From an uncultured Oscillibacter sp. (lineage in GTDB: Bacteria; Bacillota; Clostridia; Oscillospirales; Oscillospiraceae): a stretch of DNA of 46,914 bases. The stretch lies in NCBI GenBank assembly GCA_950097035.1, contig CATNDT010000004.1, positions 1-46,914 of the forward strand, written 5' to 3'. This document shows, piece by piece, positions 8,241 through 28,000 of the stretch (position 1 is the first letter of the stretch; every line of letters begins with the position of its first letter). The translations under genes were made by a program, and so were the position numbers. The notes beneath the pieces were generated by a model. That model was given only the letters and a program-made list of their open reading frames with translations, was not told where the DNA came from and did not search any database.

Positions 8241-8274
8241 TTTATACCTCCTGTAATCCGTTGTTCACTTCACA

Positions 8275-8292: not shown

Positions 8293-8315
8293 GGGCTCTT
8301 CCCCGCACGGGGAGA

Positions 8316-9830: not shown

Positions 9831-9872
9831 GGTTTCGCCTCCTCACTCCCGGACTCTTCAGGTACATCCGCC

Positions 9873-10166: not shown

Positions 10167-10202
10167 TGTAAATACCTCCTGTTTTTAATTGGATTATTTT
10201 TA

Positions 10203-10218
10203 CGCTCTGTATAGAGCG
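10203..10218 (-). other. Hairpin in the eutL-eutM gap
   Basis: Perfect 6-bp inverted repeat, CGCTCT (10203-10208) and AGAGCG (10213-10218), with a four-base loop. It is followed on the minus strand by TAAAAATAAT and then the strong eutM ribosome site. It may stabilise or process the mRNA so that shell protein is made in excess. Confidence 0.4.
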
Positions 10219-10237
10219 GTCCGCGCTTCTCCCAGCC

Positions 10238-10891: not shown

Positions 10892-10905
10892 CGTTCTCTC
10901 CCCCC

Positions 10906-11760
10906 TCACCTGATCAGGTCCACGCCGCTGGCCTTTTGCTCCAGGACTCTGGCGATGACCTCCGCCACATAGGCGCCAGCCTCCACCGCGGCGGTGCCGT
11001 TTTTGTGGATGTTGGACACCACTGTCCGCTTGGCCTCCGGCATGCCCACATAGGCGTTATAGGCGATGTACGCGCTCATGCTCTCGGCGGTGGCGAGACC
11101 CGGCCGCTCACCGATCAGAACGCAGACCACCCTGGGCCCTAAAATCTCCGCCACATGCTCCTGAGAGCCCACCCGTCCAAAGCGCAGGTAAAAGGGCGTT
11201 CCCACTCTCAGCCCCATATGCCCCAGGGCATCCGTCAGCGCCGGCAGAATCCTGTTCAGATTGGCCTCAATGGCCGTGGAGCTGAGGCCGTCTGCGGCGT
11301 AAATCTGCACATCCGGATTCATAACGCAGCGCTCCCGCAGCGCCTTCACCGCCTCAGGGGCCAGCTGACGCCCCAGATCCGGTCTGGTGATGTAGGTGTT
11401 CTTATCCGGGCACATGGTCTGCACGGTGAAGAGGCCGGCCTCCTCCAACACCTGCGGGGCCACATCTGCAAACACCGCGTCCCGTGCCTGGGCGTGGTCC
11501 GCCCGCAGGGTCAGCATAGTCCGGGTCATAAACCGGGGACCCGCCCGTCCCACGCCGATGCGGGCCGTGGTCCTGGCCATCATCCGCGCCAGGGCCTCCG
11601 GGTCCACCGGGTCCCGCACCAGCGGGACGGCCCTGCACGCCGCGGAGGTGATATCCGCAGATTCCGGCGGGGCGTTTTGGTCCGGCAGCACCACGCTGCC
11701 TGTGCGCCGCAGCTGCCGCAGCACCTCTTCCGCAATCAAGCCAATCAGTTCCCGATCCAT
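10906..11760 (-). CDS. eutC: Ethanolamine ammonia-lyase small subunit EutC
   Basis: A 284-residue small subunit that, with EutB, binds adenosylcobalamin and cleaves ethanolamine to acetaldehyde and ammonia. The N-terminal helix MDRELIGLIAEEVLRQLRR has the pattern of a targeting peptide to the compartment lumen, as known for EutC. The cobalamin-binding core includes RIGVGRAGPRFMT near the start and VCVLIGERPGLATAESMSAY, a hallmark of the family. The ATG at 11760 has GAGGAGGG, which begins directly at the eutB stop codon. Further in-frame sequence upstream is eutB shadow. Confidence 0.96.
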   Translation of the reverse strand: MDRELIGLIAEEVLRQLRRTGSVVLPDQNAPPESADITSAACRAVPLVRDPVDPEALARMMARTTARIGVGRAGPRFMTRTMLTLRADHAQARDAVFADVAPQVLEEAGLFTVQTMCPDKNTYITRPDLGRQLAPEAVKALRERCVMNPDVQIYAADGLSSTAIEANLNRILPALTDALGHMGLRVGTPFYLRFGRVGSQEHVAEILGPRVVCVLIGERPGLATAESMSAYIAYNAYVGMPEAKRTVVSNIHKNGTAAVEAGAYVAEVIARVLEQKASGVDLIR

Positions 11761-11773
11761 CTGCACACCCTCC

Positions 11774-13138
11774 TCATCCCGCAAAAATGGTGGGGTCTCC
11801 GGCCCGGCCGACCAGAAGGCCGTTTTCCATGATTCCCATCTTCTCCAGCCACAGCTCAAATTCACGGATGGGCCGCAGCCCCAGAATCTCACGAATCGCC
11901 GCCGTGTCATGATAGGCGTTGGTCTGGTAGTTCAGCATCACGTCGTCGCTGGTTGGAACGCCCAGAATGTAGTTGACGCCGGCAGTGCTCAGCAGCAGCG
12001 ACAGGTTTTCAATGTCGTTCTGGTCCGCCAGCATGTGGTTGGTATAACAGCAGTCACAACCCATGGGAACGCCGGTGAGCTTGCCCATGAAGTGGTCCTC
12101 CAGACCGGCCCGGATCACCTGCCTGCTGTCGTACAGGTACTCCGGCCCGATGAAGCCCACCACCGTGTTGACCATAAAGGGGTTAAACTCCCTGGCAAAG
12201 CCGTAGCACCGGGCCTCCATGGTGACCTGATCCGCGCCATAATGGGCGTCCGACGACAGCTCACTGCCCTGCCCGGTCTCGAAATACAGCACGTTGGGAC
12301 CCTTTGCGGTGCCCCGCTCCCGCAGCAGCGCCTGGGCCTCCCGCACGGTGTCCGCCGAAAAGCCAAAGGCGCTGTTACCCTTCTGGCTGCCGGCAATGGA
12401 CTGAAAGATCATGTCGGCAGGGGCGCCCTTTTTCACCGCCTCGATCTGGGTGGTGATATGCCCCAGCACGCAGATCTGGGTAGGAATCTCAAAGCGCCGT
12501 TTCACCTCGTCAAACCGCCGGAGCACCTCCCCCAGGCTGGAGGCCGTGTCGTTCACCGGATTGAGGCCCAGCAGCACGTCGCCGCAGCCGTAGCTCAGCC
12601 CCTCAAAAAGGGAGGCCGTGATGCCCTCCACATCGTCGGTGGGGTGATTTGGCTGCAGGCGGGTGGACAGGCAGCCCCGCCGGCCCACCGTTGTGTTGCA
12701 GGTGGCGGTGACGCGGATCTTGTTGGCGGCATAGACCAGATCCAGATTACCCATCAGCTTACACACGCCGGCCACCACCTCGCTGGTCAAACCGGTGCTC
12801 AAGCGCCGCAGCTTCTCCTCCGTGGCCGTATATCCAAGGATATACTCCCGCAGCTCCGCCATCGTCCAGCCGGCGATCTCCTGATAGACCTCCCGGTCGA
12901 TGGAGTCCTGGTTGATACGGGTGACCTCATCGTCCTCATAGGGCACCACGGGATTTTCCCGCAGGTCCCGCACCAGCAGGCAGCTCAGCACCTCTTTGGC
13001 CGCAATACGCTCCAGATCCGTCTCCGCCGCAATGCCCGCCAGTACATCCCCGGATTTCTGCTCGTTGGCCTTGGCCAGCACCTCCTTCACGGATTTGAAG
13101 GAAAAGTGCTTGCCCGCCAGCATGGTTGACAGTTTCAT
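11774..13138 (-). CDS. eutB: Ethanolamine ammonia-lyase large subunit EutB
   Basis: A 454-residue TIM-barrel subunit carrying the active site for ethanolamine deamination. Typical stretches are the N-terminal region VLAKANEQKSGDVLAGIAAE, NPVVPYEDDEVTRINQDSID, and CDCCYTNHMLADQNDIENL near the C-terminus. The length is that of the family. It lies between eutA and eutC, 21 bases after the eutA stop codon, with AGGAGCG before the ATG. It acts in the microcompartment lumen as an EutB-EutC dodecamer. Confidence 0.98.
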   Translation of the reverse strand: MKLSTMLAGKHFSFKSVKEVLAKANEQKSGDVLAGIAAETDLERIAAKEVLSCLLVRDLRENPVVPYEDDEVTRINQDSIDREVYQEIAGWTMAELREYILGYTATEEKLRRLSTGLTSEVVAGVCKLMGNLDLVYAANKIRVTATCNTTVGRRGCLSTRLQPNHPTDDVEGITASLFEGLSYGCGDVLLGLNPVNDTASSLGEVLRRFDEVKRRFEIPTQICVLGHITTQIEAVKKGAPADMIFQSIAGSQKGNSAFGFSADTVREAQALLRERGTAKGPNVLYFETGQGSELSSDAHYGADQVTMEARCYGFAREFNPFMVNTVVGFIGPEYLYDSRQVIRAGLEDHFMGKLTGVPMGCDCCYTNHMLADQNDIENLSLLLSTAGVNYILGVPTSDDVMLNYQTNAYHDTAAIREILGLRPIREFELWLEKMGIMENGLLVGRAGDPTIFAG

Positions 13139-13159
13139 ACGCTCACGCTCCTCTACCCC

Positions 13160-14590
13160 TTATCCAAACAGCAATGTCTTCACCACTACCGGAATTACCA
13201 TTCCGTCCAGCACCGGCTTCCCCAGGTCCACATAGTCCCCCTGTTCCACCTTTACCCCGTCAATACAGATCACCTGCCGCCGCCCTTTCAGGGCAGCTTC
13301 TATCTGCCCCCCCAGAGCCTTCGCAATGTCCTGCTCCAAAACAACCAGCACCGGAGCCCCGGCGGGCAATACCCGATCCAGCGTCCCGGCCAAACAGCGG
13401 GCCAGCGCCGCCACCTCTCCATATGTCGGGTCGCTCTCGCCGGGAAGTGCGAGAACCAGATTATCCGCTCCGCTCTGGTCCAAGAACCAGCGGAGCTTCT
13501 CCGCCAAAAAGGCCCCCTCTCCCGAAATGCACCGCGCCTGTTCTCCGGCGGTCAGCTTCAGGGCAGGCAGGTCCCGCATGGGCAGCAGCTCCCGGGCGTA
13601 AGCAATGGTGCTGCCGGAGATGCCGGTGGTGTAAGTACCGGCGCCCACCACGGTGGCCCGGATGGTCTCCCTCCCCCGTATGGCGGGGATGGCCTGAAGA
13701 AGCCCGCTGCCGGCAATGGAGCGCCCCAGCAGCACGCCAATATCCCCGTAGGGAACCGGGTCACCGTCTGCTCTCCAAATGCAGTCCGCCACGCCGCCGG
13801 AAAAGCAGATGCGGCTGACTCTCCGTCCCTGCAGGTCCAGCCAGGAGCTCTCCGGCGTCCGCACTGTGCCCAGCAGCCCCTCCCGGGGCTTGCAGCACAG
13901 CGCCTGGGCCAGCAGGTCCGCCATCTTATCCGTAACGCATCTCAGCTCCGCCAGCGTGCTCCGCCGGCCCGCCTGCAGCCGTACATTTACAGCCGCCGCA
14001 ACGGCCGCCGCCGCCGGGCTCACATGTTCCACCCGCAGTTCCCGGTCCACCCGGATCAGCCGGCCGCCGATATCCAGGCAGCCCTTGCTCACCGTGTCGC
14101 CCCGGTCAAAGAGGACCATGTTGGTGGTCCCTCCGCCGATATCCAGGTTGACAACGGCGCAATTGTGGTCGACGCTGTATTGAAACGCACCGCTGCCCTT
14201 GCCGGCAATGACAGACTCCAGGTCAGGGCCTGCCGTGGAGACCACAAACTCCCCGGCAAATCCGCTGAGCTGTTCCAGCACCGCGGCGGCGTTCTCCTTC
14301 CGGGCAGACTCTCCCGTGATGATAACCGCGCCGGTATCCACGTCCCGGGGCGCATAGCCCGCCGCCTGAAACTCCGCCGCCACGATTTTGCCGACAGCCT
14401 CGCCGTCAATGCGTGCCGGCGTGATCAGGGGCGTGGTGTAGACCCGGCTTTTGTAGACGACCTCCTTGTCCAGGATGGAGACCCGCGGAACAGAGAAGTA
14501 GCCCGCGGTGTTCTCCATGGTGATCCGGCTGAACACCAGCTGTGTCGTGGAGGTTCCAATATCAATTCCAACGCTTAAAATATCCGCCAC
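13160..14590 (-). CDS. eutA: EutA, ethanolamine ammonia-lyase reactivating factor
   Basis: A 476-residue ASKHA-fold ATPase-like chaperone that exchanges damaged cobalamin out of EutBC. The phosphate-binding motif VGIDIGTSTTQLVF is at residues 7-20 and the second one, NLDIGGGTTNMVLFDRG, is near residue 150. ITGESARKENAAAVLEQL is also typical of the family. The GTG start has AAGGGGG eight bases upstream. It is the first gene after the antiterminator leader (14631-14698), so its expression should depend on EutV. Confidence 0.95.
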   Translation of the reverse strand: MADILSVGIDIGTSTTQLVFSRITMENTAGYFSVPRVSILDKEVVYKSRVYTTPLITPARIDGEAVGKIVAAEFQAAGYAPRDVDTGAVIITGESARKENAAAVLEQLSGFAGEFVVSTAGPDLESVIAGKGSGAFQYSVDHNCAVVNLDIGGGTTNMVLFDRGDTVSKGCLDIGGRLIRVDRELRVEHVSPAAAAVAAAVNVRLQAGRRSTLAELRCVTDKMADLLAQALCCKPREGLLGTVRTPESSWLDLQGRRVSRICFSGGVADCIWRADGDPVPYGDIGVLLGRSIAGSGLLQAIPAIRGRETIRATVVGAGTYTTGISGSTIAYARELLPMRDLPALKLTAGEQARCISGEGAFLAEKLRWFLDQSGADNLVLALPGESDPTYGEVAALARCLAGTLDRVLPAGAPVLVVLEQDIAKALGGQIEAALKGRRQVICIDGVKVEQGDYVDLGKPVLDGMVIPVVVKTLLFG

Positions 14591-14630
14591 GGCAGCAGCC
14601 CCCTTCCCGGCATTTTCCTATAAAAGCGCA

Positions 14631-14667
14631 AAAGGCCAAGGCGATCCTCTCGATCGCCTTGGCCTTT
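14631..14667 (-). terminator. Intrinsic terminator in the eutW-eutA leader
   Basis: Perfect 16-bp stem (14631-14646 with 14652-14667) with a GAGAG loop on the minus strand, followed by TTTTGCGCTTTT. It lies between the eutW stop codon and eutA and would stop transcription before the catalytic and shell genes unless opened. Confidence 0.85.
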
Positions 14668-14698
14668 TTGCCAATCAAACCGCACCCTCTTGTGCGGT
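14659..14698 (-). promoter_or_regulatory. Two-hairpin ANTAR antiterminator leader
   Basis: Minus-strand hairpin P1 is ACCGCAC-AAGAGG-GTGCGGT (14679-14698). Four bases later comes P2, TTGGC-AAAAAG-GCCAA (14659-14674). Both loops have six bases and start with A. P2 uses the 5' arm of the terminator, so P2 and the terminator exclude each other. This is the layout of EutV-controlled leaders. The usual G at loop position 4 is A in both loops. Confidence 0.7.
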
Positions 14699-14699
14699 G

Positions 14700-15788
14700 T
14701 CACTCCCTTTTGAAGTCAAAGGACACTCTTGTCCCGCTCTCATCGGAGTCAATATGCAGTTTTCCCTTTAGCTTATCCTCCACGGTCGCCCGGACGATAT
14801 TCAGCCCCAGGCTGCTCTGCCGCCGGAGGCCCGGGTCAAATCCCACCCCGTCGTCGGCAACGGTGATCGTGTGGAACAAATTGCCCCCACACACCGAAAT
14901 CAGCACCGTTCCGGAGGGGCGGCCCGCAAAGGCATGCTTAAAGGCGTTGGTCACAAGCTCCGTGATGACCAGCGAGACCGACGCCGCCACATCCATGGTC
15001 ATGAAGACCTCCTCCCCCTCCGTCTGCAGGCGCAGACGCTGGCTTTCAGGGGGGATCTCCTGCAGGTTTTGCCGCAACCGCTCCAGCAGCACGCGGCTGC
15101 TGACAGTTCCGGCGCCTCCATGGTCATAATTTAGCATATCATGGATGGCGGAGATTGACAAGACCCTTTTCACATTTTGGGTCAAAATCGCCCGCACGTT
15201 GGGGTCGGCGCTCTTACGCGCCTGTAAATTCAGGATGCTGGCCACCAGCTGCAGATTGTTTTTGATCCGGTGGTGCATCTCCCGGAGCTCCACCGAATCT
15301 CCGCCGCGGGCGTGCTCCGCCTGCCGGTTTGACGGCTCCGTCACCTCATAGGATCTGGCCAGCTCCTCATACTTCCGCTCCCGCAGGAGCTCGCCGCTGA
15401 TATCCTTCTCCCGGATCAAAACCGCAATCACCCGGTTTTCCCGGTTTCTCACCGGCACCACGTTCTGCCGCACCGCCCTGCCCTCCTGGGTAATGGCCTT
15501 GAGGTCGCAAACGGGCATCTCCACCAGAAAGGCGTGGAACACCGCCGGCTCCCGCTCCGCCAGGGCCCGCTGCCCCACCACACTCCTGCGGTACGCGCTG
15601 TCCCCCTGTTCCGGCCGGGCCTGTGCCACAACGATCGCCGCGTCCTCGTCCAGCCGGCAGTCCAAAAAGACATCCGCATTGGTCAGATCGGCAATGATCT
15701 TCAGCCGTCCCTCCAGCGTCTCCAGCTCCTGAATATCCGCCTCGTGCAGCTGCGTATGTCGCCGGCAAAGCTCCCTTAACGCGCTCAC
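14700..15788 (-). CDS. eutW: EutW-type sensor histidine kinase (HisKA_2/PdtaS family)
   Basis: A 362-residue soluble kinase. Residues about 1-135 form a sensor region of the PdtaS GAF/PAS type. The phosphoacceptor motif is EMHHRIKNNLQLVASIL, with His173 the likely site, and the ATPase domain has ITELVTNAFKHAF (N box) and VADDGVGFDPG (G1 box). In known systems EutW senses ethanolamine and phosphorylates EutV. There is no membrane helix, consistent with a cytoplasmic signal. Its GTG start overlaps the eutV stop codon as GTGA. The stop codon is directly followed by the antiterminator leader. Confidence 0.93.
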   Translation of the reverse strand: MSALRELCRRHTQLHEADIQELETLEGRLKIIADLTNADVFLDCRLDEDAAIVVAQARPEQGDSAYRRSVVGQRALAEREPAVFHAFLVEMPVCDLKAITQEGRAVRQNVVPVRNRENRVIAVLIREKDISGELLRERKYEELARSYEVTEPSNRQAEHARGGDSVELREMHHRIKNNLQLVASILNLQARKSADPNVRAILTQNVKRVLSISAIHDMLNYDHGGAGTVSSRVLLERLRQNLQEIPPESQRLRLQTEGEEVFMTMDVAASVSLVITELVTNAFKHAFAGRPSGTVLISVCGGNLFHTITVADDGVGFDPGLRRQSSLGLNIVRATVEDKLKGKLHIDSDESGTRVSFDFKRE

Positions 15789-16510
15789 GATCCCCTCTCC
15801 ATCTCTCTTCTCATCCGGCAGGCGGCCTCCTCCCGGCTGCAGCCCAGCGCACTGGCCCGCTCCGCAATTTTTTTGAAGGCCGCCGCCTCAGATAATCCCT
15901 TTTCCCGCATCAGCCGCTCCTTGACAAACGCCACATCGCTGGAGCGCCGCTCCTGGTCCAGCAGCGTATGGGCCAGCACGGAGATCTCCACCCGCTTGTC
16001 CATGGCCATCTGCCGCAGCAGCTGATACGCCTGGGACTCGGATATTCCCTCCCGCTTCGCCAGAATCCCCTTGGCCTGCTGGACCATCCGGCTCTCGGAG
16101 AGCTGCCGCTTTGCAAGATCCGTCTCCCGCCGGCTCTGGCGCAGGCGTTTACTCTGCGCCAAGGCCACCTCCATCGTGGGAAGCAGCAGCCGCTCCTCTA
16201 TCGGTTTTACCAGATATCCCATGACCCCGATCCGCTTTGCCCGCTCGATCGTCTCCCGGTCGTTAAAGGCCGTTAAAAGGATCACACACCGGGCCAATTC
16301 CTCCTGTATGATCTTCTCGGCGGCGGTCAGCCCGTCGAACACCGGCATTTTCACATCCATCAGCACAACGTCCGGTCTGTGCTGACGGCACATCTGCACC
16401 GCGTCGAACCCGTCGCCGGCCTCTCCCACCACCTGAAGCCCCTTTTCCTCCAGCATTCCGATGATGTCCATCCGGGTGATGGGCTCGTCGTCGGCTACCA
16501 GTATCCGCAT
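15785..16510 (-). CDS. eutV: EutV response regulator with two tandem ANTAR domains
   Basis: A 241-residue antiterminator. Residues 1-115 are a receiver domain with Asp7/Asp8, phosphoacceptor Asp52, Thr80 and Lys102. A coiled-coil linker is followed by an ANTAR domain (131-186, SRMVQQAKGILAKREGISES). Residues 190-238 look like a second, diverged ANTAR (FVKERLMREKGLSEAAAF), about 50 residues more than ordinary EutV. The ATG at 16510 is preferred to a GTG two codons earlier because GAGGTG lies five bases upstream. I see no convincing promoter in 16511-16637, which holds only a small GGGAC/GTCCC hairpin (16557-16570). Transcription may come through from the upstream operon. Confidence 0.93.
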   Translation of the reverse strand: MRILVADDEPITRMDIIGMLEEKGLQVVGEAGDGFDAVQMCRQHRPDVVLMDVKMPVFDGLTAAEKIIQEELARCVILLTAFNDRETIERAKRIGVMGYLVKPIEERLLLPTMEVALAQSKRLRQSRRETDLAKRQLSESRMVQQAKGILAKREGISESQAYQLLRQMAMDKRVEISVLAHTLLDQERRSSDVAFVKERLMREKGLSEAAAFKKIAERASALGCSREEAACRMRREMERGS

Positions 16511-16637
16511 ATCCACACCTCTTTCTCACAGGCGCTCCGCAGGCCGCCTCCCGCCGGGGACCACCGTCCCTCCCGAAGCCTGTCCGCCCTTTTCCGGCAA
16601 AACTGTCGTGTCATCTTTCAAAAAACTTTCCGGATCT

Positions 16638-18206
16638 CTACCGGCCCAGCCGCCGCCTCATCAGTGTCTCGCGGATCACATTTAACCGCTCCACCACAAA
16701 AGGGGGAAATCTGTCCGCCAATGTCCTCTCATTTACAAACGAGACGATCTCCTCCGCCGGTCTCTTTTCCCGAAACATACCGTCCAGCACCTCCACATCC
16801 TCCGGCGCAATTTGCTCATAGGGGAGAAACAGGCTTTTGAATTCACTGGGCGTAAGCTCCAGAACCCCACCGCCGTAATACCGCCCGTTAAACTCACACA
16901 GCGCCAGAGTCAGGGAGTTATAAAAGCAAAACGCCACGCTGGCCGCGTCATATTGATTCTGCAGGCGAATATGATATCCCGCGTCTGTGGTGTGGATTTT
17001 CAGTTGGTTGATGTACAGATGGGGCAATTTATCCGTGCGCTTAAAGAAAAACAGATCTCCATAATTTACAATGGGTACGCCATACCAGGGCGAGCGATTG
17101 CTGCATTTATGCCGCTCTTTCAGCTTGATTCCGCTGCTGCTCTCCTCCCCCACCCGGTTCAGATAAGAGAGTACGCCCTCCGGAATCCGCTCTGCGTGGG
17201 CAAGATTTAAAAGATACACCGGCGCGTCTCTCTCCCTCAGCTTTTGGAAGAGTTCGCTGTTGAAAAGCAGGGTATCCTCCTTTATGAGGGCGTTCTTCTG
17301 CAAAATCGGCAGCACAAAATCCTGGGCCTGATTCTCCTCCACAAAAGACCGGTTGACAATAAAGTAACGGTTTCCCCCTGTGACAATTCCCGGCGCACAG
17401 GGCCCAAGCTGGCCGACCTGCAGACACCCGGCCGTGCACTCCCGCAAAAGCCGGATATCCCCATCATCCAAAACGGCGTTTGACCACTTTTTCAGCGGCT
17501 TGTTCTTCTCAATCCGGCTGCGCCTGACCGGCGCCCTCTCCTCCGGCGAGGCATAGAGATAGTAGTCAATATAAGGCGGCGCAGCCTCACAGTTTGAAAG
17601 GTATACCAAACAGGTATGCTGTTCTATCTCCGGAAAAATATTCGTCTCAAAATTAAATATCTTGATGTTGTTGAACCGCTCCTCCAAATAAAGGCGCAGC
17701 TTTTCCGCAAAGTGTACCTGAAGAAACTCCGCCGGAAGCACAAAAAAAATCGTACCGTCTCTCTTTAAAAGCTTGACGGCTGCCACCAGGAAAGCACTCC
17801 ATAGATTCTGCATGACAGATTTGTGGATCTTCTCCGCCGCAAAGAGCCGCCGCCCCTTCTCCACCGCTTCCGTCTCCATGTTTTTCAGGCTGATATACGG
17901 GGGATTTCCAATAATCAGGTCGTACCGCTCTGCACATATCTCCGCATAATCCAAAAAGTCCGTTGTGAAATAGCGAAGCCCCGGAGCTGCGATCCGGGAA
18001 CGCATATCGCTGACTTTATCCTCAAACAGCTCCACCGCATCGATCTGGCACTGCTGTTGCTGCAGCAACACCGGTAAAAAGCGCCCGTCCCCCGCGGCGG
18101 GCTCCAGCGTCCTTTGAAAGCTTTGCCCCTGCCCGCGTAAAAAGCGGACCATGAACCGCACTACTTTCTCCGGCGTGTAGAAAGAACCCGTTTTTTTATC
18201 ATCCAC
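16638..18206 (-). CDS. N6-adenine DNA methyltransferase, class I type II-like
   Basis: A 522-residue methyltransferase. The SAM-binding motif I is LEPAAGDGRFL (34-44) after the GSFYTP start motif, and the catalytic motif IV is NPPY (101-104), typical of N6-adenine enzymes. The region after about residue 260 resembles a TaqI-like target-recognition domain (VTGGNRYFIV, YINQLKIHTTDAGYHIRLQ, FNGRYYGGGVLELT). It starts with GTG eight bases after the HNH gene. No separate specificity subunit or helicase is encoded, so recognition must lie in this protein. It is last in the four-gene cassette; a short CCGG hairpin and TTTTTT follow its stop codon. Confidence 0.85.
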   Translation of the reverse strand: MDDKKTGSFYTPEKVVRFMVRFLRGQGQSFQRTLEPAAGDGRFLPVLLQQQQCQIDAVELFEDKVSDMRSRIAAPGLRYFTTDFLDYAEICAERYDLIIGNPPYISLKNMETEAVEKGRRLFAAEKIHKSVMQNLWSAFLVAAVKLLKRDGTIFFVLPAEFLQVHFAEKLRLYLEERFNNIKIFNFETNIFPEIEQHTCLVYLSNCEAAPPYIDYYLYASPEERAPVRRSRIEKNKPLKKWSNAVLDDGDIRLLRECTAGCLQVGQLGPCAPGIVTGGNRYFIVNRSFVEENQAQDFVLPILQKNALIKEDTLLFNSELFQKLRERDAPVYLLNLAHAERIPEGVLSYLNRVGEESSSGIKLKERHKCSNRSPWYGVPIVNYGDLFFFKRTDKLPHLYINQLKIHTTDAGYHIRLQNQYDAASVAFCFYNSLTLALCEFNGRYYGGGVLELTPSEFKSLFLPYEQIAPEDVEVLDGMFREKRPAEEIVSFVNERTLADRFPPFVVERLNVIRETLMRRRLGR

Positions 18207-18214
18207 CTATGTAC

Positions 18215-18796
18215 CTACTCTCTTCCGTCCAGCAGCTCGTCCAGTATTCTGTCCAGCATGGTATCCAGATCCATATAGAACTCCAGCTCTTCCCGCTCCA
18301 GCGGCTGTTTCTGTCTTTTTTGTCTCAGTTGTTCCATCTGCCGGCACAGCTGCTCCACCTTCCAAAACAGCTCCGTTCTGCGCAGATGAAAATTCAGCAG
18401 ACGGCACATCTGCTCGCCCAGCGCCGTTCTGCCCTGAATATAGCCCGCTTCATCCCGAAACAGATGCCGGTCAAACTCCTCAGAAGCGGGGTCCACAAAC
18501 CCCACGCCGCCCCGGTGGGAAACCGCCCGGTCCCCGGTGGGCCATTGATTCGATTTCACCAGGTTGCACTTGGGACAGGCCCACACAAAATTAGAGTAAT
18601 CCCTGACCCGCTCCCCATCCACTGACTGCGGAACAAAATGGTCCACATGAAAGTGTTCGCGAAAAAAGCGGCGGTTTTTCCCGCAATATCCGCACAGGTC
18701 GCCAAAGTCCTCCATCAGCATATCCCGGGCGTTTGCCTGGGCGATCTCACTTTCATATACCCGCCGTCTGACCTTAATCCCACCGTGCACCCTCAT
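18215..18796 (-). CDS. HNH endonuclease
   Basis: A 193-residue protein (numbering here from an upstream TTG codon, three residues earlier). The zinc-knuckle cysteines are C38/C41 and C77/C80, and the catalytic core is H53-V-D55-H56 with N72 and N81, so the HNH motif is complete. The second half (about 110-196) is helical and very rich in Gln, Arg and Glu, perhaps a coiled coil for partner contact. The ATG at 18796 is chosen; AGGGG lies 11 bases upstream. Its position between a receiver gene and an adenine methyltransferase suggests that it is the nuclease of a restriction-like system. Confidence 0.85.
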   Translation of the reverse strand: MRVHGGIKVRRRVYESEIAQANARDMLMEDFGDLCGYCGKNRRFFREHFHVDHFVPQSVDGERVRDYSNFVWACPKCNLVKSNQWPTGDRAVSHRGGVGFVDPASEEFDRHLFRDEAGYIQGRTALGEQMCRLLNFHLRRTELFWKVEQLCRQMEQLRQKRQKQPLEREELEFYMDLDTMLDRILDELLDGRE

Positions 18797-18816
18797 GGTC
18801 TGCAATTCCCCTCAAG

Positions 18817-19449
18817 TTATCTCTTTTGTAAAAGCGCCTCTCCCTTTTGCAGCAGATCATCCAGCTTTTGCTCAAAATCCGACCGCAAAAATCTCTCGGG
18901 CAGCCGCTCCACCATCCCGTAGGAGGACAGGCAGCGGTAAAGGCGGCAAAACTCCTCTTCTTCTGTTACAGACAACTGGCCGCCCCGCTTTTTGCGCAGC
19001 AGCGCCTCATACTCCTCGCATTTCAGGTTCCGCCGGCTTTGAAAAACCTCGGCGCAATTCTTCAAATGCTCCACAAACGCCTGAAACCTCTCCATCCGTT
19101 CAGGGTTGTCCGCCTCCGTATCAAACACATCCTTGCTGTAGATCTGTCCGTCCGACACCAGCTTATCCGTAATATGCGTGGTCTCTACAGAGGTGAGGAT
19201 AAAGCAGGTGATGTCCGGTATCACATCACTGATATAGCTGATCAACGCGCTGCCGTTATAGCCCAGCGTCCCCACCATTTTATAATCGATCAGCAACGCC
19301 TCGGCCTGGTGCTGATAGATCTGGTCAACATAGCCCGCCTTCTCACCGCTGACCGCAAAAGCCACCAGCTCAATATCACAGCGGCGGAGCTTCCTCTGGT
19401 AGTTTTCAAATTGGTCCTGCGCGTCGTCGATATATCCAACTTTAATCAT
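18817..19449 (-). CDS. Receiver-domain protein without DNA-binding output
   Basis: A 210-residue protein. Residues 1-110 fit a response-regulator receiver: Asp8/Asp9, phosphoacceptor Asp55 in ALLIDYKM, Thr86/Ser87 in CFILTS and Lys106 in IYSKD. The remainder (about 115-210) is charged and helical with no recognisable helix-turn-helix. The start overlaps the stop codon of the upstream kinase-like gene by eight bases (ATGATTAA), so the two are translationally coupled and probably partners. The helical tail may touch the HNH nuclease or the methyltransferase; that is inference. Confidence 0.75.
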   Translation of the reverse strand: MIKVGYIDDAQDQFENYQRKLRRCDIELVAFAVSGEKAGYVDQIYQHQAEALLIDYKMVGTLGYNGSALISYISDVIPDITCFILTSVETTHITDKLVSDGQIYSKDVFDTEADNPERMERFQAFVEHLKNCAEVFQSRRNLKCEEYEALLRKKRGGQLSVTEEEEFCRLYRCLSSYGMVERLPERFLRSDFEQKLDDLLQKGEALLQKR

Positions 19450-21805
19450 TGGGACCTCCCATTGTTATAATGATATGAAAGCCGCCCGTTCCAGCCCCGT
19501 TGTCCGAAAGGTCCACCGTTCCCTGGTAATCCTGCACGATCTGGTTAATGATCCACATTCCCATTCCCGTCCCGTCCTCATCCAGATCCCCGGCAATCCT
19601 CTTATCTGTCTCAAACGCCTCCAGCACCCTCTCCGGGTGATTTCGGTAGACCTCTGAAAGCCCCCAGCCGGTATCCTGATAGTCGATTTGAAGACTGCCG
19701 CTGCCCCGCTCCGCAATGCGGATCGTGATCCGCTTCTCCTCCAGCGGCATCTCGCTCTCCCGTTCAAAGGAGCTGACGCTGTTGGAAATCAGATTGCTGA
19801 AAATATTCTCCAGATCCAGAATGAAACAGTGCAGCCTCAAGTCCGGGTCGCAGGCAAACTCCAGGTCTGCACCGCTCTTTTTCAGCACAGCCCGCCAGGC
19901 ATCCATAAAGCCGGAGAGGGCCTCGCAGACGTGATAAGTCCGGCGCCTGCGCTTATCCTTTTTAATGGCCCCGATGGTAATGCCAAACCAGGAGGAAAAG
20001 TGCTTTTTGCTGCTCACGGCGCGGAGGATCTGCCGAATCGCGTACTCCTTATCGTCATCCAGCTTCAGCGCCTCGTAGGCGGAGTCCAGCTCCACACCAA
20101 TATTATGCGTCAGGGTTCGGATCTCATGCATAAACATATTCGTGATGATGCCTGTGGTTGCCAAAGTCCGCAGCATGGTAATCTCGTCCTGCAGGTCCTG
20201 AATGGCCTGTTCCTTTTCCGCAAGAATATCCGATACCAGCCTGTGCATCTCGATGGGGTTTGCCGCGGGGGCCGCGGCCGCAGGACGCCGCTCTCCGCCC
20301 GACGGGGGGAGGTCCGCAGACAACGGCTCCTTTTTCTGCTCCTCCTCCCACTTCCGCCGCTGTTCCGCCAGCTTTTTCAGCTCCTCCAGCTCGCGCTCCG
20401 TCTCCTTCTGCTTTTTGTCATACTTGGCCAGGAGCCGGCCCACGCGCTGCCGGTCCCGCTCAAACTCGTCGATCACCGCCAGCAGGATCTCTTTGAGCTG
20501 TATCAGGCCCGGCCCGTCCTGCAATCCGTTGCGGTTGGCGTCATCCTCCAGGTTTCGGTTTTCCCGGGAGATGTTGACAATTCCCATAATCTGCTCGGAG
20601 CCCACTCTCCAGCGGCCGCTCCCATGGGAGAGTCCGGCGGGCTGGCGATTCCTTCTGGCGGAGAGCTCCAGCCAGTCGAAATCATTGTCGCCGTACTCGC
20701 CGTAGGGACGCACCCGAAAATGATCCCGGTATACCTTGATTCCGCCAAATTCCTTTGTAAAATTCTTTCTGCCGGTAAAATCCTTATAAAAAAACTTCTG
20801 CCTGTCCTTTTCCGTGGCGGCCACCTTGTTAAAATAGAGCGTACCGCCAAAGCCGCCGATCAGGTTCCGCTTATCGGGCTGCGAGATGATCTCCCGCAGC
20901 GGCCGCTCCAGCACAATCTCCTCTCCCGCAAAATACGCCTCATCCCTCTCGGAAAAGCCCAACGCCTGAAGATCCAATCTCCCCACCACGTCAAACTCAT
21001 TCCGGACAAGCCGGATCTCCAGGCGGCTTTCACACGCCTCCAGATCGGGCGTGACCTGAAACAGTATCTTATAGTCAAACTGCCCGACGCTGTTGCTCCG
21101 GATCTCCGCAGCGTCCGGGTCCGTCGCTCCGTTAAAAAAGTAGATCTTAAAATTTTCCACCGCGTCCGGCGGGAGAAGATTTGAAAGATGGCGGCAAATC
21201 CGCTCCTGCAGCCGCTCAGTCCAATCGTCATGCAGGGCGGTCAGCCGAAATACGGTGCCCGTCCCATGAAACCCCGGCTCCGTGCCCCTCAGCAGCGCCG
21301 CCATGCCGCGATTTGTCCAACAGGTAATTCCGGCAAAGTCCAGCAAATCCTCATCCGTGTCATACAGCCGGGCCTTTACCTCCGATATCCGCCTGTTGTC
21401 AGAAAAGTCGCTCCAGCAGACATCCCAAATCAGGGTCTCTCGTCCGGTGGATGTCCACATCTCACACCGCTCTGAAATCCTGTCCAGCGCAAAACGTCCG
21501 ATCCCCTTGGCACCGGTTTTGATCCGCCCCTGCCGGCTCACATATTCGCTCTTTTTTGAGGAATTCCCAATGGTCATCCAGTGGCGGCGAATAATCTCCT
21601 CTGTCATCCCCTCGCCGTTATCCATGATCAGAAGAGACCGGTCCCTCTCATCATAATAAAAGCATACCGCCGATGCGTCCGCATCGTAGGCGTTTTTGGC
21701 CAGCTCCAGTATCGCACCCTCGATTTTAGAGACATTTTCCCGCCCGATCAGGCGAGCGGTATAGGCGTCTACATCAAACTCGATTTCCCGCCGGTTTTTC
21801 AGCAT
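19442..21805 (-). CDS. MORC-type GHKL ATPase fused to a histidine-kinase-like module
   Basis: A 787-residue protein with two GHKL sites. N-terminal site: E34/N38/D41 (LELAKNAYDADA), D62xGxG66 (IMDNGEGM) and GAKGIGRFA (98-106), the pattern of MORC/MutL/Hsp90-type ATPases. The middle (about 200-420) resembles their transducer region. A coiled coil with Lys/Glu-rich sequence and a Pro/Ala linker follows (about 445-525). The C-terminal part has an H-box-like MFMHEIRTLTH with His560, an N box (ENIFSNLISN, 666-675), a G1 box DTGWGLSE and a G2 box GTGMGMWI near residue 747. No membrane helix. It is first in the operon and overlaps the receiver gene. Confidence 0.8.
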   Translation of the reverse strand: MLKNRREIEFDVDAYTARLIGRENVSKIEGAILELAKNAYDADASAVCFYYDERDRSLLIMDNGEGMTEEIIRRHWMTIGNSSKKSEYVSRQGRIKTGAKGIGRFALDRISERCEMWTSTGRETLIWDVCWSDFSDNRRISEVKARLYDTDEDLLDFAGITCWTNRGMAALLRGTEPGFHGTGTVFRLTALHDDWTERLQERICRHLSNLLPPDAVENFKIYFFNGATDPDAAEIRSNSVGQFDYKILFQVTPDLEACESRLEIRLVRNEFDVVGRLDLQALGFSERDEAYFAGEEIVLERPLREIISQPDKRNLIGGFGGTLYFNKVAATEKDRQKFFYKDFTGRKNFTKEFGGIKVYRDHFRVRPYGEYGDNDFDWLELSARRNRQPAGLSHGSGRWRVGSEQIMGIVNISRENRNLEDDANRNGLQDGPGLIQLKEILLAVIDEFERDRQRVGRLLAKYDKKQKETERELEELKKLAEQRRKWEEEQKKEPLSADLPPSGGERRPAAAAPAANPIEMHRLVSDILAEKEQAIQDLQDEITMLRTLATTGIITNMFMHEIRTLTHNIGVELDSAYEALKLDDDKEYAIRQILRAVSSKKHFSSWFGITIGAIKKDKRRRRTYHVCEALSGFMDAWRAVLKKSGADLEFACDPDLRLHCFILDLENIFSNLISNSVSSFERESEMPLEEKRITIRIAERGSGSLQIDYQDTGWGLSEVYRNHPERVLEAFETDKRIAGDLDEDGTGMGMWIINQIVQDYQGTVDLSDNGAGTGGFHIIITMGGPND

Positions 21806-21886: not shown

Positions 21887-21915
21887 AGTATAAGGCAAAT
21901 ATGAGATATTTGCAA
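21887..21915 (-). promoter_or_regulatory. Sigma-A promoter of the GHKL/REC/HNH/methyltransferase operon
   Basis: Minus-strand TTGCAA (21910-21915), 17-base spacer, TATACT (21887-21892), about 80 bases upstream of the first start codon. It is the same hexamer pair as the mraZ promoter in this window. Confidence 0.75.
21895..21913. promoter_or_regulatory. Perfect inverted repeat inside the operon promoter
   Basis: GCAAATAT-GAG-ATATTTGC: two perfect 8-bp arms with a three-base centre, filling the spacer and overlapping the -35 box. The location is ideal for a repressor, but no DNA-binding regulator is encoded in the operon. Confidence 0.55.
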
Positions 21916-22009: not shown

Positions 22010-22038
22010 TTGTAAAAAACTGTAAAATCACTTAGAAT
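22010..22038 (+). promoter_or_regulatory. Sigma-A promoter of the giant repeat-protein gene
   Basis: TTGTAA (22010-22015), 17-base spacer, TAGAAT (22033-22038). The -10 box overlaps an ATG at 22037, which argues that the true start codon is further downstream. Confidence 0.55.
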
Positions 22039-22066
22039 GGAGAAAAACAGAAAAGGCGGTGGGACA

Positions 22067-25000
22067 GTGAAGACAACGCTGCGGGATAAGGGCCGGAAGA
22101 GCCGGAAACCGGACAGGGCGCTTTTGGCGCGCCTGTGGGAATTTGCACTGGGGATATGGGATGATCTCTGCGGCCAGGGCCGAAAGCTGTGGACGTGCCT
22201 TTTGGCCCTGGCCCGGAAACGGAAAACCCTTGGAACTTTTGATGTGACGGTACTTTTGACAAACCTGGCCGCCCTCATGGCCGTGCGCTTTGTAAACTCC
22301 GCTTTGGCGGATTACGAACGCCGGCAAGGTCTGCACAGGTTTTCCCTGGCAGCCATAATCTTTTTGACGGCCGCTCTTCTGTGGGAGGGCTTTTGTCTCC
22401 TGGTCCGTCTCCACGACTGGGAGAAGGCCAACGGAACCATTCGGAAGAAGCGATTGGCCCTTATGCGGACAAAGGAACGCCGGTGGGCACTGGTTCTGGC
22501 ACTTTTTCTGGTAATATTCCTGGGATTGGGATTTCACTTCCGCTGGTCAACCCGCTATTACGCCTCTCTCACAGAGATCTACGGCGTTCCCGTCGGGGCC
22601 GGGGAGCCCCTCACCCTGGCGGAGTGCCGGCATCTCACAGGCTATTGGAAGGTGGTAAACCGCCCGGGCCTGGGATACATGACGCTAAGCTACGAGAATG
22701 ACTGGGGGCAGGTGGAGCTTATGCGCCATTATTCCAGCGCCTACGGCATGGATTTTTTCCAGCCCCCGGCCCGCATTGAGGTGGACTATCAAACCACAGA
22801 GGACAAGGAGTTCTACCGCCAGTCCGGCTGGGAGGGCTTTTTCACAGCGAAGAGCCACAACTTTAAGGAGCCAACGCGCATTCGTTACTTTGGAAGCAAC
22901 CGCAATCTCCTTCTGGAAATGACGCGAAGCGGCCAGGGCCTGATGAAGATCACGGCTTATGCGTCTGAGGAGCGGCCTCAGCTCTTCAATTCCACCCTTC
23001 TTCTGTTTCCCGAGGAGGAAGAGGCCGATTCCACCTCCCGGCAGATCGATGTCTTCTACGGCGCCGGCAGCCTTCCGGCGGAGAGCAGCGCGGCCTTCCA
23101 GCAGATCGAAACTCTGTACAACAGCAGAGGCCTCCCCGAGATTCGCAGGCTGAATCCACAGGTCTATAACCGCTACGGTGTAAACGGCGAACGCTATTCC
23201 TACGATACCGACGGGCGGATCAGCGCCCTTTGCTATCTGGATATCCAGGGTGAGCCGATCTGCAACAAGCTGGGCATTATGACCGTCACCTTCCACTACG
23301 ACACAGACGGGCGTCTCTGCGGCCTGCGCTATTACAGCGACCAGGAAAGAAAAGAGAAAACCGAGGGGTTCCACGGCGTCTTTTACGAGGACATCCACTA
23401 CAATGACGACGGGCAGCTTGCATACCGCCGGCAGATGGACCGCTACAATGACGACGGGCAGCTTGCATACCGCCGGCAGATGGACCGCAACGAAAACTGG
23501 TGTCAGGACAAGAACGGCGTCTACAAATACGCCTACAGCTATGACCCGGCAAACGGACGGCTGATCCGGGAGGACTTCTTTGGCGCCGGAGACCTGCCCG
23601 TGCGAAGCCGGCAGTTTTTCAGCACCTGGATCGGCTTCTCTATGGAAAAGTCCCTCTTCCGGGAAACCGCGCTGGAAATCAGTCTGGAATCCACCGTCAC
23701 CGTCGCCGAGGAGGAGGCAGTCGAATCCGGGTATCCGCAACCGGACTCCGAAACCCCATTGGAAGAAGAGCCTCTGATAGGGGGCGGAGGGGGCATACTC
23801 CCGGGCGAGCGGGAAAACCGTACGTCCGCAGCGGAGAACAGCGGCCGGTCCCCGGAGCCAGGCGAGGATGCGCGCAGCGACACGCCCCGGCGGGCCTACA
23901 CCATCATCCGCCACGAGTTTCGGGACGGTATGGTCTGGAAAATCCGCTATCTGGATTCGGAGCGCCGGAGCGCGCCCAACGAACAGGGCTGTGAAGAAAT
24001 CCGCCTGGAACACGAACAGGGGCGTTTGAGGCGGGAATCCTATCACGACGCCGACGGAAATCCCCGCCTCATCCGCGGGGGCTATGCTGCGGTATACCGC
24101 GACTATGAGGACGGAAAACTCCTCCTTCTGGAGTACCGGGGGATAGAGGATAGGCCCGTCACCAATCGGCTGCTGGGCTATGCCTCAGTAACCTACTGCC
24201 GTGACATCCGGAGCGGACAGGAAACGGTTCGGGAGTACTATACCGACCCGGAGAGGAATCCTGCGAAATTGGCAGATCTGGGCTGCACCAGCGTGGAGCG
24301 GAGCTATAACGCAAGCGGACAGCTGATCTCGGAAACCTATTACGACAAGGAAAATCAGCCTGTCTGCCGAAGCGGCTACGGCGTCTTCCAGGTCCTCTAC
24401 GAGTACGCAGACGATGGAAATATGATTCTCGAGTGCTATAAAGACCTTGCAGGCCGCCCCGTCAACCGGCTGGATACCGGGTGCGCCGCCATCCACTGGA
24501 GCTTTGAAAACGGGCGCATGACGCAAAAAAGCTTTGAGGGCTATCGGGACGGCGCTCTCCGTCCAACGGTGGAGAAGGAGAGCGGCGCCGCCTCTATAAA
24601 GTACCAGTATGAAAACGGGCGGCAGGTCCAGGTTCGTTTTTTCGGTGTGAATGGGGAGCCGGTTTTAAGAAACGGGTACGGCTGCGCCTCCTGGCGAAAC
24701 GAGTATGAAAACGGCCGGCTCTCCGCCCGGTACTATTACGGTCCGAACGGGAAACTGTTGGCGCGAAACGACACGGGCTACGCCGTCATCCGCTACACCT
24801 ACGACGGCCAGGGCCGCCGGGAAACCATCCGCTATTACGGAGAGAACCAGGAACCGGTCATCCACAACGAGTACGCGTGCGCCGGATTTAAATACGAGTA
24901 TGACGGCGCAGGCAACGAGTGGAAGATGTTTTTCCTCGGTCCGGACGGCGAAAATATGCTGCGCGGAGACGGCTATGGCTTCGCCTATACGGAAAAAAAC

Positions 25001-28000
25001 TATAACGACGAGGGCGTTTTAACCGGCGAGCGCTTCTTTGGCCTCAACGATGAACCGATGCTCTGGAAGGAGCGGGGCTATGCCTCTTTCAAGTTTGAAC
25101 TCAATGAAGACGGCAGCAAAAAAGAGGCCCACTTCTATGATGAGCACGACAATCCCACCCGGCGAAACGACTATGGTTACGCCACCGTTCTCTATACTTA
25201 CGACGATGAGGGGCGTCTCGAATCAGAACGCTACCGTGACGAGAGGGGCCGGCCGGTCATCAGTCCCTATTATCAGTGCGCCGGCTTTTTCTACGATTAC
25301 AATAAGGAGGGCCAGAAAATCCTTGTGCGCTACCTGGGTCTGGACGAAAACGCCCTGATCCGCCCGGATCTCGGTTTCGCCGAGATCCACATGGCCTACG
25401 ATCCCCGGGGAAACCTTTTCTCAAAGAGCTACTTCGCCGCCGACGGGAAAACACCGGCCCTCTACAAAGGCCGGGGCTATACCGCATTTGAGGATATCTA
25501 TGATGAGAGCGGACACTGCGTGGAAAACCGCTACTACAGCCGCTATCAGGACGGAGAGAAGGTCCTCACCATACGGACGGACCGGGGCTATGCGATTGCA
25601 AAGCACTGGTATAACGACGCGGGCCTTCTGAAAAAGACCCTCTACTACGACGGGGAGGAACGGCCCGTCCTTTCCTGGCAATACCGCTGTGCAGGCTTTT
25701 CCTATGAGTATGACCAACGCAGCCGGCAAAGTCTGGTCCATTTCCTGGGAACCGACGGCAAGCCCATGCTCCGCCCGGACTACTGCGACGCCGCCATCCG
25801 CAAAAGCTACGACGGCGCGGGAAATCTCACCGGCGAGGTCTATCTGGACCTTGCAGGCAGGCCCGCCGTCTGGAGCACGTATGGCTACGCCTCTTACACC
25901 AAAGTCTATCAGGCCGGAAAACACACGGAAACCCGCTATTTTGACGCCCAGGGCAACCCGGTTTTGAACCGGGAGACGGGCTGCGCCGCGATCCTCTTGG
26001 AATACGACGATCTGGGGCGGCTGATTGCTGAGCGCTATTACGGAAAAGATGATGAACCGGTTCTCCACAAAAAAGAGCACTGCGCCGGTTTTCAATATGG
26101 CTATGACGACGCCTGGAACCGGACAGACACCTTCTATCTCCACCCCAATGGGGGCGTTATGATCCGCGAGGACAAGGGCTACGCCCACATCCACTCCGAA
26201 TATAACTCGCTTGGCGAGGCGGAAAAAATCTGGTACTACGCGGACGCCGGGGAGAAAACCCCCGCCGCCGCGAAGGAGGGGGCGTTCCACCACATCCGTC
26301 AGAAATTTGCCCAGGGAACATGCGTAATGCGCAGCTATTTCGATGAGAACGAGGCTCCTATGCTCCGCGCCGACGAGGGCTACGCCGCATATGAAAGCAG
26401 GTATAACCAGTTCGGCCAGCTGGTTCGGGAGCGCTACTACGGCCTGGCGGAGGAGCCCGACAAAGCGGCCCCTCTGGTAATCTGCCGAAGCAGGGGCTGC
26501 GCCGGCTTTGTCTACCGTTACGACGGGCGGGGCAACCGGACGGACATCTGGTGCACCGCCCCGGATTTCGGCTGGATGGTCCAGTTGGACAAGGGCTATG
26601 CCCATGCTTGCTACGACTACGACGAGCTGGACCACCTGAGCGAGGAGCGGTATTATCTGGATGGGGGTGATGCCCGCCCTGCCGTTTGGATCGAGAGCGG
26701 CTATGCCCGGGCCACCTTCCTCCACGACGCGCAGGGAAATCTTCTGGAAGCCGCCTATTTTGGTCCTGACGGCCATCCGGTTCTTCGGAACAACTATGGA
26801 GCCGCCCAGGTAAAAAATAAATACGACCCCTTTGGAAAGCTGCTCCGCACCCTCTATTTTGGACGGGAATACCAGCCCATCTGCACAAGCGAGTGGCACT
26901 GCGCCGGTTTTCAGTACGACTATGATGTCTGGGGAAACCAGACGGATATCTGGTTTCTGGGCCTTGACGAAAAGCCCATGGTCCGGAGCGACAAGGGCTA
27001 CGCCCATGAACACTCGGAATACGACGCGGAGGGAAACGAGATTCAGCGGCAATATTTCAACGAGGAGGAACAGCCCGCCTATCACAGGGAATGGGGCTAC
27101 TCCTCCTTTGAAAGCCGCTATGAGGATGGAAACTGCGTCTACCGGCGGTATTTTGACGCCGGGCACCGGCCCACGCTGCGGCAGGGCGGGTATTCCGCCT
27201 ATGAGGTAAGCTTTCAAAAGGGCTGCCAGGAAACCCGGTATCTGGATGAGGAGAACCGCCCGATCCTGCTGGATGGCAATTATGCCGCCCTTCGCCAGGA
27301 ATACGATGAGCTGGGGCGGGAAATTTCCAGGATCTATCTGGATGGGAATATGCACATGGTCCTCCACAAAACCGAGGGCTGTGCGGGCTACCGCTATGCC
27401 TATGACGATTTTGGAAACCGGAGTGATGTCTGGTATCTGGGGCTTGACGGCAAGCCTATGTCCATGGAGGGCCGGGGAGTCGCTCACGTGCAAACCAAAT
27501 ATATAGCCGGCGGACTGGAAACAGAAGAGCGCTTCTTTGACAGTGAGGAAACTGCCGTCGCCCATGGGGAATACGGCTACGCCGTCAAAAAGAGCTTCTA
27601 TAAAAACGGGAAACTGCATCAGGTCCAGTACCTGAACACAGAGGAAACCCTCTGTCTCCGCGAGGATACCGGCTGCGCCGTGGAGGAGTATGACTATAAC
27701 ATTACCGGACGCCTTGCCTCCGTGTGGTACTACGGTCTGGAGGACGCTCGTGCCGTCCATAAAACGGAGGGCTATGCAGGCGTTGAATATCTCTACGACG
27801 GGCGGGGCAATCTCAAAACTATTTACTATTATGGCGCTGACAGAAAGCAGTCTCCCCGGAGGGGCTACGGCGTATCGTACAATCACATGGTTTATGACGA
27901 GTATAATCACCTGATTCTGGATGAGTACTTTCTTTTGGGCAGGCACTCCGAATATGAATACGAATACGCTGTTCGGAAAGACGTGGGCTACGCCGTCATC

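Follow-up and report, generated by a model that had tools for sequence, protein, structure and literature searches.

We analyzed a stretch of 46,914 nucleotides (nt) from an uncultured Oscillibacter sp. (contig CATNDT010000004.1, positions 1 to 46,914; this whole stretch is referred to here as the window), which carries a cassette of four adjoining genes for a kinase with two GHKL modules, a receiver protein, an HNH nuclease, and an N6-adenine DNA methyltransferase. This cassette is a real conserved four-gene unit, and it forms an HNH/N6-methyltransferase branch of its own within a family of restriction-modification systems, linked to two-component signaling, that has been described in part. 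With regard to its function, we lean slightly toward a restriction-modification cassette in which a cytoplasmic two-component pathway, acting by His-Asp phosphotransfer, controls the nuclease. An earlier note on this DNA had described four same-strand genes with overlaps or short gaps at this place, and calling of open reading frames (ORFs) confirmed both the layout and the limits. The main features, with the evidence for each, are as follows:

16638-21805, minus strand: cassette of four same-strand ORFs (ORF calling)
19442..21805, minus strand: dual-GHKL kinase, 787 amino acids (aa) (Pfam HATPase_c_3 and HATPase_c; PDB profile)
21425..21724, minus strand: N-terminal GHKL module of the kinase, residues 28-127 (E34, N38, D62-x-G64-x-G66, G98-x-K100-G101-x-G103)
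19469..20224, minus strand: histidine-kinase core, residues 528-779 (His560, N671/N675, D711-x-G713-x-G715, G745-x-G747-x-G749)
20126..20128, minus strand: codon of His560, the presumed phosphoacceptor, within MFMHEIRT (residue counts in relatives)
18817..19449, minus strand: receiver protein, 210 aa (conserved residues, PDB profile, AlphaFold2 model)
19285..19287, minus strand: codon of Asp55, the presumed phosphorylation site (Asp in 28/28 aligned receivers)
18215..18805, minus strand: HNH nuclease, PtuB-like, 193-196 aa (Pfam HNH, 20-row profile, invariant residues)
16638..18206, minus strand: Eco57I-type N6-adenine DNA methyltransferase, 522 aa (Pfam, PADLOC, motifs)

The kinase gene (21805-19442) overlaps the receiver gene (19449-18817) by 8 nt. 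The HNH gene has two candidate starts, TTG at 18805 and, three codons on, ATG at 18796, and it stops at 18215; the methyltransferase gene runs from a GTG start at 18206 to 16638.

The protein identities proposed in the earlier note held as well. The kinase combines an N-terminal MORC-like GHKL module with a C-terminal histidine-kinase core (DHp plus catalytic domain), and Pfam recovered both GHKL modules (HATPase_c_3, E 1.5e-14, residues 28-127; HATPase_c, E 6.8e-15, residues 664-776). When a 20-row kinase profile was compared with the PDB, residues 528-779 matched sensor histidine kinases (3a0r, E 1.1e-21), and residues 30-197 matched MORC3 (6o1e, E 4.3e-6), which identifies the N terminus as a MORC-type GHKL module; MORC2 was also matched. 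The kinase has H, N, and G boxes, the first being MFMHEIRT, which sits between both GHKL modules and resembles the H-box of histidine kinases. Kinase searches used an 11-row alignment, in which N38, D62, G64, G66, G98, K100, G101, and G103 are invariant and E34 is nearly so, while PDB profiles and the receiver model were built from 20 of the 28 members of the HNH branch. The residues of the core were counted over 92 of 101 kinase ORFs (28 with an HNH-type downstream effector and 64 others), the same set that underlies the kinase tree described below; loci L005, L045, L047, and L072 and ORFs of <620 aa, including both pieces of a broken copy in L014, were left out, and near-identical viral copies (e.g., L038-L040) were counted singly, which slightly inflates the counts. 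His560 is a histidine in all 28 HNH-branch kinases and in 62 of the 64 others (90/92), N671 is conserved in the same proportions (28/28 and 62/64), and N675 is present in 92/92. D711 is found in 27/28 and 59/64, and G745, G747, and G749 are each found in 28/28 HNH-branch kinases and in 63, 62, and 62 of the 64 others, respectively.

The receiver protein carries every canonical residue, namely, the acidic pair D8 and D9, the phosphoacceptor D55, T86, and K106. Among 28 aligned receivers, D55 and T86 are invariant (28/28), the acidic pair consists of D or E in 28/28, and K106 is a lysine in 25/28. A 20-row receiver profile matched response-regulator receivers in the PDB (E 5.5e-6), and the AlphaFold2 model (mean predicted local distance difference test score [pLDDT] of 87, falling to about 60-64 for residues 181-200) has a (beta-alpha)5 receiver fold followed by helices at 116-156, 161-176, and 192-209. 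PADLOC gave no match for this protein. The HNH protein was matched by Pfam HNH (PF01844, E 9.7e-9), and its 20-row profile matched PtuB of retron I-A in the PDB (E 3.5e-7). Its catalytic and zinc residues are intact, with H56, N72, N81, and cysteines 38, 41, 77, and 80 invariant in 28/28 HNH proteins. An Hpt phosphotransfer domain in the same protein was considered and set aside, the Pfam match (E 0.017) being too weak. For the methyltransferase, Pfam listed Eco57I (E 2.3e-15), M_Eco57I_C (E 8.9e-18), and N6_Mtase, and the motifs EPAAGDG (residue 35) and NPPY (residue 101) are present. Its best PADLOC match was the generic type II model MTase_II PDLC03267 (E 2e-114, whole protein), and the window sequence alone matched M.BseCI (E 1e-11) and M.TaqI (E 8e-10) in the PDB over its N-terminal third.

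Conservation of the four-gene unit

The earlier note had proposed a search for the same gene order elsewhere, and the genes proved not to be scattered. Our scans of viral and genome contigs were limited to stretches matching short peptide patterns. The genome scan with the kinase picked up five loci with 51-54% identity; Lachnospiraceae or Hungatella is the title of four, and the fifth is titled "Bacterium 1XD8-76." The three long ones hold the identical four genes in the identical order to the window; L003 matches that order until the contig ends past the HNH gene, and in L005, which lacks the start of the kinase, the receiver match covers no more than the initial 82 residues, close to the end of the contig. 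The same order is also found on plasmids of Bacteroides, Ensifer, and Salipiger, and on a Deinococcus plasmid the methyltransferase is placed first. Within the order, the kinase search was positive for 12 of 394 genomes. In total, we collected 28 loci of the HNH type from genomes, plasmids, and viral contigs, including the window; 12 of these follow the window order, in 14 the methyltransferase gene is located upstream, and 2 break off without reaching it. A methyltransferase thus accompanies the nuclease in 26 of 28 loci, the other two (L003 and L035) being cut by the end of the record.

A chance neighborhood was ruled out by starting from the nuclease instead of the kinase. A viral scan with the HNH profile alone gave 65 loci, of which the 12 scoring 181-238 bits all have a kinase and a receiver just upstream, while the remaining 53 (≤51 bits) have neither; one of these low scorers, L197 (34.6 bits), covers most of the HNH profile and has no kinase. 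The 12 high scorers all come from contigs that the kinase scan had already identified, and the HNH-only scan is incomplete, recovering 12 of the 17 viral HNH-type loci from that scan. Across the order (394 genomes), the HNH profile had three matches, 3/3 inside such cassettes; because this profile derives from members of cassettes, it may overlook distant relatives that stand alone. For a viral scan starting from the receiver, the alignment had too little conservation. Within the closer relatives the cassette is sporadic, since the window receiver was absent from the other 98 of the 99 related genomes that were searched, among them 60 from the same genus.

Three of the five genome loci (L002, L004, and L006) resemble each other at the DNA level from ∼60 nt upstream of the kinase start onward. 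This similarity breaks off within the final 200 nt of the methyltransferase gene for the pairs L002/L004 and L004/L006 and ∼200 nt past it for L002/L006. The cassette genes are under purifying selection among these three relatives, with a ratio of nonsynonymous to synonymous substitution rates (dN/dS) of ∼0.07-0.14 for all genes where dS was measurable (two comparisons involving the L004 methyltransferase were saturated). The L004 methyltransferase (11604-13175) shares only 56% identity with its L002 counterpart, with blocks of 24-71% along its whole length, while its three partners are 87% (kinase), 88% (receiver), and 85% (HNH) identical, and this difference points to an apparent replacement of the whole gene in L004.

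Outside the cassette, the only DNA shared is one repeat in the L006/L002 pair. In L006, a 179-nt direct repeat occurs at 1795-1973, 7691-7869, and 13227-13405, the later copies having 87% and 65% identity to the first, and these copies flank the four-gene cassette as well as a unit upstream that contains a large ORF; an ORF that looks helicase-like by eye precedes the first copy. L002 has a single copy after the cassette, at 13231-13387. These repeats may mark points of insertion or exchange; they have no match in the window.

A modular kinase family and a proposed mechanism

Clustering of the genes neighboring the 101 kinase ORFs, together with Pfam annotation of representatives, revealed one plan with exchangeable parts. 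The methyltransferases are Eco57I-type, belong to two further N6/N4-type groups, or are C5 enzymes. Downstream of the kinase there is a separate receiver with an HNH protein, a separate receiver with a metallo-beta-lactamase-fold protein, or a single protein of 340-480 aa (in cluster 20, 667-684 aa). In profile comparisons, such downstream proteins begin with a receiver-like region with probabilities of 75.7, 96.9, 97.0, 67.0, and 79.6% for clusters 4, 7, 8, 11, and 15, respectively; as controls, the undisputed neighboring receiver in the window reached 83.0%, and four unrelated neighbor clusters reached 0.1-1.2%. Single downstream proteins gave 96.6% (L109), 62.4% (L108), 55.9% (L110), 31.7% (L099), and 18.4% (L107), and the last two also match Response_reg (E 2.3e-5 for L099 and 4.7e-4 for L107).

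Linkage to a DNA methyltransferase is tight in this family. Among the 66 kinase loci having at least 3 kb on both sides, 65 have a methyltransferase within 4 kb, L068 being the miss, and for four of the 65 (L013, L085, L101, and L106) the match is weak or lies >2.5 kb away. The density of methyltransferases per 10 kb falls from 2.475 at <2 kb to 0.253 at 2-4 kb, 0.037 at 4-6 kb, and 0 at 6-8.2 kb, the window and L014 excluded; the profiles behind both figures were trained on neighbors of these kinases. In a quick kinase tree, the HNH type forms a single branch with a Shimodaira-Hasegawa-like approximate likelihood ratio test (SH-aLRT) value of 95. Effector type requires seven changes on this tree, which is the minimum for its eight states (79/92 rows; the 13 rows without an assigned type were left out, and clusters 8 and 10 were pooled). 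Methyltransferase chemistry requires eight changes against a minimum of four for five states, "unassigned" being one of them (64/92 rows; the 28 without a same-strand methyltransferase were left out). Pearson correlations with kinase distances over 15 loci were 0.97 for the receiver, 0.93 for HNH, and 0.79 for the methyltransferase (without L003, L014, L039, L040, and L109; for the methyltransferase, 15 loci with a cluster 2 enzyme of >400 aa), a contrast that may lean on a few close pairs, and we regard this tracking of partners as weak support.

Some branches have features of their own. The metallo-beta-lactamase branch (L010, L073, L088, and L093) has a receiver and an N6 methyltransferase and no HNH protein. 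Campylobacter accounts for 41 of the 92 matched plasmid records carrying a kinase relative; the L011 plasmid is typed as conjugative, and at 7010-11463 its kinase relative precedes a response-regulator protein of 340 aa and a C5 methyltransferase gene in convergent orientation. By eye, the region after the receiver in clusters 4 (L068, L063, and others) and 8 and the cluster 20 protein share a CD (or GD...CD) motif. The effector parts of the receiver-fused representatives had no Pfam match and, where scanned, no PADLOC match, and a PDB profile search with cluster 4 (14/17 members) returned only receivers and receiver-bearing signaling proteins. The CD-motif region of clusters 4, 8, and 20 is possibly an unrecognized effector fold.

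In the mechanism that we lean toward, the methyltransferase would mark host DNA, and the MORC-like ATPase module would serve as the input of the kinase, probably reading the state of DNA or of a protein assembly during invasion. The kinase would then autophosphorylate on His560 in its C-terminal core, the phosphoryl group would move to Asp55 of the receiver, and the helical extension of the receiver would bind the HNH nuclease and switch on cutting of unprotected DNA. We infer phosphotransfer, receiver-nuclease contact, the direction of the switch, the input signal, protection by methylation, and a role in phage defense. A protection partner would predict the methyltransferase linkage seen in 65 of 66 loci. 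A broader version, which we hold tentatively and as a whole consider somewhat doubtful, is that of a large, modular immune family built around the kinase as its constant part, with an attack enzyme rather than transcription as the output of the response regulator (HNH here, metallo-beta-lactamase-fold or receiver-fused effectors elsewhere). The effector would follow the kinase lineage, methyltransferases of four families would be exchanged as a marking plug-in, and transfer from His560 to Asp55 would license HNH cutting of unmarked DNA, making HNH a restriction enzyme that depends on a sensor to turn it on.

The earlier note had suggested gating of the nuclease either by phosphorylation or by ATP-driven clamp closure. 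The complete H-box, N/G-box, and receiver residues favor the phosphorylation half of this suggestion. The other half, in which ATP-dependent clamp closure of the MORC-like module drives the system and the kinase core and receiver are adaptors without phosphotransfer, appears unlikely to us. The N-terminal module does match MORC3 and MORC2 as well as the N terminus of the BbrUII/HgiDII restriction enzyme family (E 2.1e-13 over 103 N-terminal residues, at 50 bits with a cut-off of 550), and MORC/paraMORC GHKL proteins are described in restriction-modification operons, paraMORC1 with HNH nucleases (Iyer 2008, PMC2292703). However, the residues of a dead relay should drift, and the phosphorylation sites are kept although 15 of the 19 receivers aligned to the window receiver are just 17-23% identical with it.

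Several points weigh against phosphorelay control of the nuclease. The receiver matches Pfam Response_reg under the cut-off (E 0.0045), and its contact with the HNH protein is presumed. In the wider family, direct comparison of cluster 10 gave a receiver probability of 35.7%, but this cluster matches cluster 8 at 97.5%; for cluster 20 and for L052, L053, L101, L102, and L103, a receiver went undetected by profile comparison, and the kinases of L085, L106, L114, and L115 lack an immediately following gene on the same strand. Rank correlations with the kinase (receiver, 0.62; HNH, 0.76; methyltransferase, 0.59) separate the partners poorly. In the literature, covered largely at the level of titles and abstracts and mainly in open access, no experimental study was recognized as dealing with this set. 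Finally, no site-recognition domain was identified in the kinase, receiver, or HNH protein, and therefore a nonspecific or abortive nuclease is possible.

An abortive or toxin-like switch, in which a phage triggers the relay, the HNH protein degrades DNA broadly, the cell dies, and the methyltransferase acts as a guard or sensor instead of a protector matched to the site, is in our view a little less probable than clamp closure. Besides the lack of a recognition domain next to the HNH domain, it can draw on the closeness of the HNH protein to the PtuB effectors of retron and Septu systems and on L004 and L002, whose methyltransferases are much less alike than their HNH proteins. However, methyltransferases of about 50% identity can share a target, and the linkage across the family fits a protection partner.

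Many response regulators act as transcription factors. The pair might regulate the expression or amount of restriction-modification or other genes rather than the nuclease protein; direct or indirect restriction-modification control was speculated upon by Bellieny-Rabelo and colleagues (2021, PMC8011034). We consider this the least probable alternative, favoring direct effector control because Pfam recognized no DNA-binding domain in the receiver, whose modeled helical extension would still be compatible with DNA binding, and because sister branches have receivers joined to large effectors.

If a His-Asp relay does gate the nuclease, this restriction system would possess an explicit sensor as well as a switch, and bacterial MORC-type ATPases would gain a measurable output. 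Restriction enzymes are usually viewed as always on, restrained solely by methylation of their sites. The clear phosphorylation sites, small separate components, and natural swaps make the family directly testable.

Local setting of the cassette

The earlier note had also placed the four genes behind a single promoter and read their lower GC content as a sign of acquisition. The promoter found little backing, as the candidate is one of four sites in a consensus scan, against 3.2 in shuffled sequences:

21887..21915, minus strand: promoter-like site TTGCAA-17-TATACT, 5' of the kinase gene (consensus scan, not above chance)

The GC content of the cassette (0.546) is below that of the three eut-type genes on one flank (0.61-0.64), but the gene on the other flank has 0.573. 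Genome-wide, 10 of 60 same-sized windows drawn from ten 20-kb stretches of the genome (mean, 0.572; standard deviation, 0.046) are as low as the cassette, and a foreign origin is therefore unsupported by composition.

Directly downstream of the cassette, at 13160-16516, lie ORFs for a putative two-component pair and a putative reactivase of the ethanolamine-utilization type. For the response regulator next to the cassette, a search of 60 other genomes of the genus at E 1e-60 gave no relative, which left no site in the genus for an empty-site comparison. On the other side, the plus strand at 22037-28279 encodes, divergently from the cassette, a 2080-aa repeat protein with a short near-exact internal duplication; its many repeats are presumably of the YD type.

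Relation to known systems

The earlier note knew of no named system with exactly this set. This stands as far as libraries are concerned, since PADLOC, Pfam, NCBIfam, and PHROGs place the four window proteins in no named system and do not join them in one, but a related kinase-receiver pair was published in 2021 (PMC8011034).

MORC/paraMORC operons share with the cassette a MORC-type N-terminal GHKL module and an operon with a methyltransferase and a nuclease, but the cassette adds a fused histidine-kinase core and a receiver, a word absent from the main text of the description of these operons (PMC2292703). A superfamily II helicase, common though not universal in paraMORC operons, was not found by Pfam among the four cassette proteins. 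The likeness to BbrUII/HgiDII is confined to the N-terminal GHKL module, and the cassette nuclease is a separate HNH protein; PADLOC likewise gave only a weak N-terminal restriction-enzyme match for the kinase. In retron and Septu systems it is PtuB that the HNH domain and the region downstream of it resemble. PADLOC returned PtuB-like HNH matches, NCBIfam PtuB and TIGR02646 matched under their cut-offs, and the HNH protein was also matched by two PtuA models, over positions 43-226 of profiles 726-733 long. In contrast to those systems, no PtuA-type ATPase (Pfam) and no retron was recognized among the cassette proteins. In Detocs, a histidine kinase and a receiver serve phage defense rather than gene regulation, with a different effector and different partners; Pfam listed no phosphorylase for the cassette proteins. 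Among the predicted, unvalidated systems of DefensePredictor (PMC13092281), the legend of Fig. 6F expands HATPase and REC, so by this legend alone at least one system shown contains HATPase or REC domains.

The closest relatives are the kinases with the architecture HATPase_c_3-HEF_HK-HATPase_c that adjoin Response_reg_2 proteins (91.6% linkage, 644 regions), reported by Bellieny-Rabelo (PMC8011034). In the portions of that paper drawn on here, type II restriction-modification genes, C5 methylases above all, are overrepresented around these pairs, HNH_2 and Vsr also occur in the vicinity, and a two-component system controlling restriction-modification, with a relation to paraMORC, is proposed from computational evidence. 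The cassette resembles them in its soluble HATPase_c_3, DHp, and HATPase_c kinase adjoining a divergent receiver with intact residues and in its type II restriction-modification neighborhood. It differs in having an N6-adenine methyltransferase where their prevalent, though not universal, partner is a C5 methylase, and a PF01844/PtuB-like nuclease where HNH_2 is best represented; C5 methyltransferases do occur in other branches of the cassette kinase family. The window proteins and the relatives scanned had no match to PF19191 or PF19192 at E up to 1, and PF19192 matched 0/18 records and 0/299 genomes in a search in which no positive control matched either. A fixed kinase-receiver-HNH-methyltransferase unit is not described in those portions of PMC8011034. 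The principle of a two-component pair linked to restriction-modification is thus not new, and the anatomy of the family, with its fused effectors, effectors tied to kinase lineage, and exchanged methyltransferases, gives a sharper form to the proposal that control of the attack enzyme lies with the relay.

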